Of a stretch of DNA of 33,166 bases, positions 12,422 to 27,897 are shown piece by piece. The stretch spans positions 4,352 through 37,517 of the forward strand of contig JAMCPG010000024.1 in the NCBI GenBank assembly GCA_023379845.1, in the 5' to 3' direction. Under the pieces are notes generated by a model, which worked only from the letters and a program-made list of their open reading frames with translations, made no database searches and was not told the origin of the DNA. Numbering within the stretch: the stretch's first letter is position 1; each line of letters starts with the position of its first letter. Both the position numbers and the translations under genes were made by a program. Source of the DNA: Thermoplasmatota archaeon (GTDB taxonomy: Archaea; Thermoplasmatota; Thermoplasmata; Thermoplasmatales; Thermoplasmataceae).

Positions 12422-13612
12422 TCAACTTTCAGCCTGATCTGCATTCATCTTTGAAAAGAAGATGTAGTACAAGATCGGATCCAGCAGTGAAACAATTCCA
12501 GCAAACGAAAACATGACGGTATATGCACCCAGGGCCATGAGATAACTCCCGAATGTGGTCGCCACACCATAAGGAATTCGCCTGGAGATGCCTGTCAGGC
12601 TGTTTCCCCTGGCCCTTTCCGAAGATGTAATCACAGACATCTGGAAGTTCTGTCTTATGGGCAGTGCCATCTGATAGATACCCGTCCTCGTTACATATAC
12701 AACTGCAGCTAAAATAGGAGAGACGAATGGAATGAAAACAAAAAGACCCGATCCAAGAAGTCGAAGGACGACGACAGAATTGATTGAACCGAATGATCGT
12801 TCAAAGAAAGATGCGAATACGATCCCTACGCCGGCCGCAACGTAGGATAGAGTGAATATGTCTGATATTTCTGTGTCAGAAAACCCTATTATTGAGAAAT
12901 ATATCGACATCAACGGTGTAACAACGCCCAGGCCAAGACTGCCCATCATTCCTGCGAGACTTATCATCCCTATGTTCTTGACTGACTTGGTTGGAAGAAC
13001 GCCTCTCTTCTCTTCCCCTGCAGAGGGTTCTTTCTTCTTGAACCTCCCCTCTTCGAGGAACAGCATAAGAAGAATAGAAATTATGGTAAGAACGAATGCA
13101 ATGAGGAAAAGTACGGAGTAGTAAGAAGCAATAGTAACCTCAAGCCTGGAGGCAACGAACCCTCCAAGTATTGCTCCTAGTATTGATATTATCATAAGGT
13201 TCGAGTATGTGCGTGTTCTTTTTGGCCTCTCCACGACATCGGCGACAAGCGCATTCATTACGGGTGCTACAGGACCTCCGCCAGCTCCTCCACCTATTGC
13301 ACTGAATGAAAGCCCGAACAGGGCGGTTGCAAATACGACGTAAAAGTCTCTTGTAAGCAGGAAGGCCAGGAATGCCAGTCCAGGCAGTATTGATACCAGA
13401 ATCAGTGTGTTTCGTTTGCTGTATAAATCGCCGAGGAATCCTGAAAGCAGAAGGAGAAATGAACTCGCTATCGTTGCGACAAACGCATATATCCCAACTT
13501 CAACAATAGAGAAGCCAATATGGTAGAGATAAAGAGGAACCAGGTAGGAAATGTAACCAAATGAGAAGCTTCTCAAGCCGCGTATTGCAGCAAGCAACGG
13601 GATCTGCCGCAT
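12422..13612 (-). CDS. MFS transporter
   Basis: 396 residues with about 12 membrane segments. Motif A between helices 2 and 3 reads GFLGDLYSKRNTL (58-70), and a Gly-rich loop AIGGGAGGGPVAPVMN (about 104-119) is notable. A charged cytoplasmic loop (about 186-206, KKKEPSAGEEKRG) separates the two halves. An A/T box (CTTTAATAATC on the minus strand) about 27 bases upstream supports a leaderless start at 13612. Substrate unknown; drug or metabolite efflux is the usual role for this type. Confidence 0.8.
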   Translation of the reverse strand: MRQIPLLAAIRGLRSFSFGYISYLVPLYLYHIGFSIVEVGIYAFVATIASSFLLLLSGFLGDLYSKRNTLILVSILPGLAFLAFLLTRDFYVVFATALFGLSFSAIGGGAGGGPVAPVMNALVADVVERPKRTRTYSNLMIISILGAILGGFVASRLEVTIASYYSVLFLIAFVLTIISILLMLFLEEGRFKKKEPSAGEEKRGVLPTKSVKNIGMISLAGMMGSLGLGVVTPLMSIYFSIIGFSDTEISDIFTLSYVAAGVGIVFASFFERSFGSINSVVVLRLLGSGLFVFIPFVSPILAAVVYVTRTGIYQMALPIRQNFQMSVITSSERARGNSLTGISRRIPYGVATTFGSYLMALGAYTVMFSFAGIVSLLDPILYYIFFSKMNADQAES

Positions 13613-13734
13613 TCCATCTTAATCACAACAGATTATTAAAGAGAATTGCCGCGGAAGGCGTTAATATTTAACTGTCAGTTAAGCATGAGCAGGACCCATG
13701 TACCAAGTATTATTTCATTCATGAAAAGAAGGGG

Positions 13735-13744
13735 TAAAAACTTA
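13735..13744 (+). promoter_or_regulatory. Candidate TATA box for the riboswitch transcript
   Basis: TAAAAACTTA predicts a transcription start near 13763-13768, just ahead of the conserved GGGG of the TPP riboswitch. A second candidate (GTATTATTTCAT, about 13707-13718) would give a start about 25 bases earlier. Confidence 0.35.
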
Positions 13745-13762
13745 AGTAAGTACCAGCGATAT

Positions 13763-13849
13763 GGAGGTACGGGGAGCTCGTAAAGGGCTGAGAGGGCTTT
13801 AAGCCGACCCGACGAACCTGAACCAGATAATACTGGCGGAGGGAAAAAA
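13763..13849 (+). promoter_or_regulatory. TPP (THI-box) riboswitch
   Basis: All conserved blocks of the thiamine pyrophosphate aptamer are present in order: GGGG (13771-13774), a P3 stem GCTC/GGGC with a 5-base loop, the CTGAGA block (13788-13793), a small variable hairpin (GGCT/AGCC), ACCC pairing back to GGGG, ACCTGA (13816-13821), the CCAG-ATAATA-CTGG P5 hairpin (13823-13836), and GCGGAGGGA (13836-13844). Archaeal TPP riboswitches are known in Thermoplasma ahead of predicted thiamine transporters. The closing P1 stem is unclear: CGATAT (13757-13762) could pair with ATATCG (13860-13865), or GTACC (13750-13754) with GGTAC (13766-13770), if the transcript starts early enough. GGAGGG of the core is also the Shine-Dalgarno of the ORF at 13850. 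Confidence 0.9.
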
Positions 13850-13924
13850 ATGCATAATTATATCGTACGTGAAACGGATAAGACATCGCTGGCTCTCAGG
13901 AGAGGTGCAATAAATGGGTTCTGA
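13850..13924 (+). CDS. 24-codon leader ORF downstream of the TPP riboswitch
   Basis: ATG 6 bases after the GGAGGG Shine-Dalgarno that forms part of the riboswitch core. The peptide begins MHNYIVRETDKTSLALRRGA and stops at 13922-13924, overlapping the first 11 bases of the transporter gene in another frame. Ligand binding would hide its ribosome-binding site. It may act to couple translation to the transporter, or the peptide may be an N-terminal part of the transporter if the sequence carries a one-base error. No family recognised. Confidence 0.5.
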   Translation: MHNYIVRETDKTSLALRRGAINGF

Positions 13925-15197
13925 GGGACATATAACAAAACCTCAGAAGGCACTCATAACATCGGCTTCACTTGGTTACATGATGTGGGGTGTTGTCGCA
14001 TCGATAGGCCCGCTCGCAGCGGCTGGGGAAATTCTATCGTCCAGCCCGGTGCTCGATACTAAAATTTTCTCTCTCATTATACCAACGCTTGCCCTTCTTG
14101 CAGGAAATGTCGCAATGGGTTACTTCAGCGACAGAATAGGAAGAAAGAAAATATTCTTCCTGACTCTTATTCTTTATGGATTTGGCATTATAGCTGTTTA
14201 TCTCTCAACCAACTTTCCAGAGCTCGCAATTGGACTAGCTTTGGCGGAGTTTGGGGCGGGAGGGGAAGAGCCCCCTTCACTCTCCGTGGTGGCAGAGGAC
14301 TTTTCACCGTCCAGAAGAGGGAGATTCCTTACGTTAATACCGAACTTCAACAACATCGGTACCCTCGTTTTCTACCTTGTTCTTATATTGAACATACTGC
14401 CAGGCAGAGCGGACATCCTGGTTTTCGGTTTTGGCATCATAATTATTGCTTTCTTTGCAAGGGTCTCGATTCCTGAGTCTTTCAGGTGGGAAAAATCAAC
14501 TGGAAGAGTAACCGAATCTTCAGAGACATTGAAAACCCTGACTATAGAAGATGAGGGTCAGAAGAGGAAAAAACCGAATTCGCTTGCTGCTTTTTCCATA
14601 CTATCCATGCTCGCTGTTTCACAATACCTGACTTTTGGGTTGATGACGTACGTAATAGGACCATATGAATTTCCAGGGGCTTTCACGGACAACGTCATTG
14701 TTGCTGTCGGAATGGCAGGATCATCAGTCGCAGGCTTTATCGCGCTATTGCTGATAAACAGGAACAGGACAAATTATACACTGTTCGCATTTGGCGGCGG
14801 CTTCCTATCGTTGATAGCGATACTCGCTGTTGCGTTCCTCAGCCAGGGTTTATTCGTGGCCGCCCCGATTCTATATTTCTACCCTCTTCTGTTCATAAGC
14901 ATGATGTTCAGTGAGTTCGCATGGGCTTCCCGCACTACATTGGAGCCTGAGATGTTCTCGACCTCATGGAGAGCCTCGTCTATTGGACTGGTAAGGGTCG
15001 TCCCAATGATTGCCTATGCTCTTTCTATCGTATATACGAGCTCTCTTGGCCTCCTGCAATACATAGAATTCAACGGAGTGCTCTGGTTTATAGGTTTGCT
15101 TGGTGCAATATGGCTGAAGACTATGAAGCTCGATACATCGAAGGTCAGCCTTGACTATGATGATGAATCTCAACCAAAAATGGAGATCTCACCTTGA
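13914..15197 (+). CDS. MFS transporter under TPP riboswitch control, predicted thiamine-related uptake
   Basis: 427 residues with 12 predicted membrane segments in two halves joined by a charged loop (about 196-225). Motif A is GYFSDRIGRKK (about 69-79) and an acidic FGAGGEEPP stretch (about 113-121) sits in helix 4. The start has its own Shine-Dalgarno, GAGGTG (13902-13907), 6 bases upstream. Known: MFS transporters behind archaeal TPP riboswitches were predicted to take up thiamine or its precursors. The riboswitch 65 bases upstream makes that the best call here, although the exact substrate (thiamine, hydroxymethylpyrimidine, or their phosphates) is not shown by the sequence. Confidence 0.8.
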   Translation: MGSEGHITKPQKALITSASLGYMMWGVVASIGPLAAAGEILSSSPVLDTKIFSLIIPTLALLAGNVAMGYFSDRIGRKKIFFLTLILYGFGIIAVYLSTNFPELAIGLALAEFGAGGEEPPSLSVVAEDFSPSRRGRFLTLIPNFNNIGTLVFYLVLILNILPGRADILVFGFGIIIIAFFARVSIPESFRWEKSTGRVTESSETLKTLTIEDEGQKRKKPNSLAAFSILSMLAVSQYLTFGLMTYVIGPYEFPGAFTDNVIVAVGMAGSSVAGFIALLLINRNRTNYTLFAFGGGFLSLIAILAVAFLSQGLFVAAPILYFYPLLFISMMFSEFAWASRTTLEPEMFSTSWRASSIGLVRVVPMIAYALSIVYTSSLGLLQYIEFNGVLWFIGLLGAIWLKTMKLDTSKVSLDYDDESQPKMEISP

Positions 15198-27794: not shown

Positions 27795-27897
27795 TCCCGG
27801 CTTCCGGATTCGAACCAGAGACCTGCGGATTACGGCGGCATATCCTTCATGGAAACTCCTCTACAGTCCGCCGCTCTACCAACTGAGCTAAGCCGGG
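27795..27897 (-). tRNA. tRNA-Tyr (GTA) with intron
   Basis: Minus strand. Acceptor CCCGGCT pairs fully with AGCCGGG; D arm GCTC-AGTTGGTA-GAGC; anticodon stem GCGGA/TCCGC with loop CTGTAGA (anticodon GTA); variable AGGTC; T arm with TTCGAAT. The C1-G72 pair is the archaeal/eukaryal tyrosine identity element, and the discriminator is A. CCA is not encoded. Mature length is 73 bases once the 30-base intron is removed. An A/T box at 27922-27932 would start transcription a few bases upstream. Confidence 0.95.
27831..27860 (-). other. 30-base intron in tRNA-Tyr
   Basis: Placed between tRNA positions 37 and 38, the canonical archaeal site, because removal restores a 7-base anticodon loop; the boundary can slide by one base. 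The intron contains CCGCC, which can compete for the GGCGG of the exon. I could not draw a clean bulge-helix-bulge by eye. Confidence 0.8.

Follow-up and report, generated by a model that had tools for sequence, protein, structure and literature searches.

A TPP riboswitch in Thermoplasmatales whose core precedes a leader reading frame that may relay translational control to a transporter gene

In direct translation attenuation the purine-rich conserved 3' core of the TPP aptamer serves as the ribosome-binding site (Barrick and Breaker 2007, PMC2258182). In the ppe2 B12 riboswitch of M. tuberculosis the main gene depends on an out-of-frame upstream ORF, uPPE2, which is controlled by the riboswitch (PMC11260477). 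Termination-reinitiation has been demonstrated for overlapping gene pairs in Haloferax volcanii (PMC6728339), and coupling is strongly distance-dependent, with a typical range of -8 to +6 nt (PMC10666635). Our search for riboswitch-uORF relays in the open-licence literature found one case, the bacterial B12 system, and the archaeal layout described below may have been noticed earlier.

The window (the whole stretch of 33,166 nucleotides analysed here, from contig JAMCPG010000024.1 of assembly GCA_023379845.1) contains a single TPP riboswitch. It matches RF00059 at 13760-13861 on the + strand (model positions 1-105) with 65.8 bits against a cut-off of 54.3. The conserved core is present (CUGAGA, GAACCUGA and a 3' GGAGGGA), and the gene downstream encodes an MFS transporter with a probable role in thiamine-related uptake. 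The features of the locus are as follows.

13735-13749, + strand: predicted archaeal promoter, an A-rich BRE-like stretch followed by the TATA-like TTAAGTAA at 13742-13749 (spacing constant within the genus; A+T maximum across the order)
13771-13844, + strand: TPP aptamer core, P2 to P5, with an unconvincing P1 (RF00059, 65.8 bits)
13838-13843, + strand: GGAGGG, part of aptamer P4 and the 3' core, and Shine-Dalgarno sequence of the leader, 6 bases 5' of the ATG at 13850
13850-13924, + strand: leader ORF of 24 codons plus stop, MHNYIVRETDKTSLALRRGAINGF, with the stop codon TGA at 13922-13924
13902-13907, + strand: GAGGTG, a Shine-Dalgarno-like site of the transporter itself, within the leader (read from the sequence)
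13914-13924, + strand: overlap of the leader end (TGA) and the transporter start (ATG), 11 nt including the stop (read from the sequence)
13914-15197, + strand: MFS transporter of 427 aa (PF07690, 1.2e-23)

An earlier note on this DNA had placed GGAGGG in the 3' core, six bases ahead of a 24-codon ORF, and had described this ORF as ending inside the transporter in another frame. Both descriptions are correct: the transporter ATG at 13914, 64 bases downstream of the leader start and in a different reading frame, lies 8 bases before the leader stop codon, which brings the overlap to 11 nt when the stop is counted. The transporter's own GAGGTG, also named in that note, is where it was said to be. 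The 3' end of the 16S rRNA, our source for the anti-Shine-Dalgarno sequence, is GGATCACCTCC in five relatives; the window's own assembly is without 16S rRNA. The AGG of GGAGGG is paired in P4 of the folded aptamer, so that binding of TPP would mask the site.

ThiC was not found in any of six genomes of the window's genus (62-85% complete), which fits a reliance on uptake; the substrate of the transporter is presumed to be thiamine-related. Searches for Thi4 yielded nothing beyond short hits towards the N-terminal end of the model, which probably reflect an FAD-binding motif. Elsewhere in the window, a tRNA at 27795-27897 on the - strand scored 57.7 bits with Rfam and was missed by ARAGORN; its anticodon region has 33 additional bases, which probably represent an intron.

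TPP riboswitches had been described as rare in archaea, a view that the survey did not support. Within the order 86 of 117 genomes carry one, and they are common in the class, with 192 of 400 genomes in our sample. All eight contigs with a related transporter have one upstream. Among these relatives, the ATG that follows the core starts the transporter itself in L006 (Thermoplasma sp.), L007 and L009, and opens a short ORF in the window's genus and in L008. We sorted 120 loci with a TPP riboswitch from the order, the window included, into 53 direct loci, 18 with another platform and 49 with a spacer between core and gene; locus L151 and two further matches in the order (G090 and G042:C50) were outside this set. 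Three apparently broken spacer loci, all from genome G097, were omitted, leaving 46. At the direct loci the gene starts 4-8 bases past GGAGGG. These 53 loci thus use for the gene's own start the spacing that the leader has in the window, which supports the earlier proposal of a second role for the aptamer core, as ribosome-binding site.

The 18 loci with the other platform (L121, L132, L146, L117, L083, L094 and others, in genera g3, g4, g6-g8, g10, g12 and g19) keep P1 (GCUA..AGC) and have a 45-nt spacer. In these the gene's site GGCAGGA stands opposite UCCUGC just past the start codon, and loci with GGUAGGA at the first position have UCCUAC at the second, which suggests a covarying start-codon hairpin. 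At two other loci, L137 (genome G112) and L139 (genome G039), the riboswitch and the first residues of the gene look identical although the genomes belong to two different families of the order; a binning mix-up is more likely here than transfer.

A leader start codon near the core was present at 44 of the 46 spacer loci, and no standard leader start was found at the other two. Thirty-five ATG and four GTG codons lie 9-14 nt from the first G of GAGGG; the remaining five starts, all in genus g5, are ATG codons at 7 nt. Seven loci of g5 (L111, L135, L149, L154, L155, L158 and L159) have ACG in place of the leader ATG of their relatives, 13 nt from the core, and most of them also have ACG in place of the transporter ATG (48 nt); a nearby ATG or GTG could substitute.

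Transporter starts were set independently of the leaders, by taking the final start codon that lies 39 nt or more ahead of the recognised first transmembrane motif, except at six loci of a second transporter subfamily, where we assigned the start manually according to the N-terminus. Every one of the 44 leaders ends 0-17 nt into the transporter gene, against 8.5 expected from dinucleotide shuffles. When loci were grouped into clusters the result was 17 of 17 against 2.5 expected from the same kind of shuffle; these clusters group the loci roughly, according to genus and the length of the leader, and correct only partly for kinship. Overlaps were 0 nt (1 locus), 1 nt (8), 4 nt (9), 7 nt (6), 8 nt (2), 11 nt (6), 14 nt (5), 16 nt (5) and 17 nt (2). 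The leader frame is open up to the transporter start in 43 of the 44 loci, L097 having its stop immediately 5' of the ATG, while each of the two other frames is open in just two. For the window locus alone, shuffled leaders gave a 27% chance of an open leader with such a stop, and the case therefore rests on the comparison across loci. The layout is beyond chance for the order-wide set, though not for the window locus alone.

The earlier note had looked to Thermoplasma and Ferroplasma homologues for the leader and its overlap. Both recur in the five species of the window's genus and in many other genera; the Thermoplasma sp. locus L006 is without a leader. It had also allowed for a sequence error behind a leader really fused in frame. 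Five genomes agree on the layout and the relative frames are mixed across loci, so we rejected assembly error and frameshift. The preservation of a leader with overlap or abutment across species excludes sequencing error and fits coupling.

An own Shine-Dalgarno sequence often precedes the transporter, varying among loci. With GAGGTG at the window and a 27% chance for one open leader, the locus could be read as an ordinary switch, in which the transporter uses its own site, the aptamer acts by a P1/anti-P1-like pairing and the leader is incidental. We regard this as improbable, given the stop positions of all 44 leaders, the frame control, and what follows on P1 and the promoter.

The gene 5' of the riboswitch (12422-13612) runs in the opposite direction, and the promoter is therefore expected in 13613-13770. 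In the leader-bearing genomes of the genus a TTAAGTAAG block stands at a constant distance from the GGGG of the aptamer. Over 115 distinct loci of the order, the A+T content reaches a maximum of 90-92% at 31 to 28 bases 5' of GGGG, and a stretch rich in A lies between -38 and -35. In archaea the TATA box sits about 26 bases ahead of the transcript start. Applied to the TATA-like element of the window, this rule predicts that the mRNA starts at about 13771, at the aptamer itself, and the position of the promoter signal would leave no room for an upstream switching strand. P1 is weak as well: four of its five pairs at the window are non-standard, and about two of four pairs are formed on average across 99 loci, barely above shuffles. 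At the window we found no stable P1 able to swap with an alternative helix, as a P1/anti-P1 platform would have. The short repeats once put forward for such a choice do exist (CGATAT at 13757-13762 with ATATCG at 13860; GTACC at 13750-13754 with GGTAC at 13766-13770). CGATAT, GTACC and GGTAC fall 5' of the predicted start, and neither pairing is kept in the four further species of the genus that have a leader; these stems were rejected.

The frame of the leader is conserved, and there is some likeness among leaders of close species, as would be expected of a functional or sensing peptide, whether an attenuator-like stalling peptide or a small protein. Differences between the leaders of the window and L080 are spread evenly over the three codon positions (7/9/9), compared with 37/10/226 for the transporters of the same pair. 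Values of pN/pS for leaders were mostly 0.5-1.3, and no shared motif was seen among leaders ranging from 12 to 42 codons. This lack of peptide constraint led us to reject a sensing peptide, and we consider a functional peptide of any kind very unlikely. Because the start, the open frame and the stop site are conserved and the peptide is not, frame and stop position appear to be under selection and the leader peptide does not.

Programmed frameshifting, which would fuse the overlapping leader and transporter frames into a longer protein, is the least credible explanation. The transporter frame relative to the leader is +2 in 28 loci, +1 in 15 and 0 in one, so that no single shift would serve, and related direct genes lack such a tail.

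Translation of the leader might also merely melt structure over the transporter's Shine-Dalgarno sequence, with ribosomes starting de novo and not by reinitiation. In the window's genus GAGGTG lies within a small predicted hairpin, which is weak evidence, and accessibility of the site is below that of shuffles in all five species (z -1.5 to -2.1). Across the 44 loci of the order, by contrast, the junction shows no excess structure (mean z -0.07), and a leader serving only to melt structure would not need a stop so near. A general hairpin masking the transporter site was rejected on these grounds for the order; only the window's genus and a family outside the order, f15, lean that way. We hold structure melting to be a rather unlikely, though sizeable, alternative to reinitiation.

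In family f15, of the same class, the riboswitch precedes a different gene, of about 385-413 codons. The leader starts with ATG or GTG at a distance of eleven bases from the reference G in 28 of 29 loci, and the leader ends between 2 nt before and 14 nt inside the first in-frame ATG in 27 of 29. These leaders are G+C-rich and a second frame is likewise open (28 of 28), which weakens the argument from frame in this family; more weight falls on the invariant start position. The leaders tend to have a hairpin over the downstream site (mean z -1.4) with some compensatory change. A structure set by hand showed modest covariation, with a partner slid by one base scoring about equally, and RNAalifold returned no pairs for the f15 leaders, the arms being out of register. 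The f15 proteins seem to resemble the order's second gene family, of which a single member was matched to solute-binding proteins (PF01547). Within families f5 and f14 (L129, L103, L053, L065 and others) TPP riboswitches precede membrane-anchored proteins that resemble extracellular solute-binding proteins (PF01547, 1.4e-7 for one member) and are candidate thiamine-binding proteins.

The state of the locus, direct or with leader, requires no fewer than six changes on a tree built from 81 transporters, and three changes are forced by well-supported branches; this is a quick tree with long-branch warnings, and gives the number of changes but not their direction.

The aptamer, the spacing, the leader, the overlap, the conservation of these features and the lack of peptide constraint can be read from the sequences. 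From them we infer a transcript start, a ligand response and a coupling step that together would form a relay. The mRNA would begin at the aptamer or a few bases away. At low TPP, ribosomes would load on GGAGGG in the core of the aptamer and read the 24 codons of the leader. After stopping 11 nt into the transporter gene, they would either reinitiate at the transporter ATG or make the transporter's site accessible to other ribosomes, and the transporter would be made. With TPP bound, the folded aptamer would hide GGAGGG in P4, the leader would not be translated and the transporter would be off. The leader peptide would be functionless, and its frame and stop position alone would matter. The relay is favoured by the aptamer scoring above cut-off, the core being the gene's own ribosome site in 53 loci, the 44 of 44 stop positions, the frame control, the evenly spread leader substitutions, the repeated changes of state and the similar layout in f15. 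Direct attenuation, the riboswitch-uORF coupling of M. tuberculosis and coupling in archaea are precedents. Against it stand an overlap at the window that exceeds the usual coupling range, the GAGGTG that would permit independent initiation, the chance level of the single locus and the two spacer loci without a standard start. On balance, we think it likely that such a TPP-controlled translational relay operates at the window locus. The chances are about even that it represents a class-wide archaeal design, in which P1-poor aptamers at the mRNA 5' end use the core as primary ribosome entry and a content-free leader ORF relays to a gene tens of bases away, with leaders gained and lost repeatedly and in more than one gene family.

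If true, the relay would be a natural case of selection on translating a short ORF and on its stop, not on its content. Relays of the riboswitch-uORF type would then include archaea and the TPP class, and the system would illustrate how control by a direct switch can be retained over a gene distant from the aptamer. The layout is found in dozens of species of acid-loving archaea, the 44 loci are a ready comparative set, and the system would allow translational coupling in Thermoplasmatales to be studied with a natural ligand.

By analogy, the closest precedent appears to be the B12-uPPE2-PPE2 switch of M. tuberculosis. Both systems combine a riboswitch with a short out-of-frame uORF whose stop overlaps the main start, as at the window; the leader stops overlap or abut it in the 44 loci. 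For ppe2 the main gene needs uORF translation and termination-reinitiation, whereas here such dependence is suggested indirectly by the conservation of frame and stop. The ppe2 switch is of the B12 class, in a bacterium, with a separate expression platform, a 4-nt AUGA overlap and a main gene without its own Shine-Dalgarno sequence. The archaeal loci, unlike it, are numerous, belong to the TPP class, carry the Shine-Dalgarno sequence inside the aptamer core, overlap by 0-17 nt and often have a Shine-Dalgarno sequence before the main gene, such as the GAGGTG in the window. Archaeal coupled pairs (PMC6728339, PMC10666635) share the overlap of stop and start together with coupled translation, which is presumptive in our case, but are ordinary genes with overlaps mostly of -4, -1 and -8, with neither riboswitch nor content-free leader. 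CsrA is reported to control iraD through a short uORF, the effect being handed to the gene through coupling (PMC5574718), as proposed here; that regulator is a protein, in a bacterium, and not an aptamer. With its site in the core at a working distance of 6, the riboswitch of the window would act like direct translation attenuation but is not a plain member of that class: in direct attenuation the core site belongs to the regulated gene, whereas at the window it belongs to a leader that would relay to the gene. The plain form occurs in the 53 related loci.
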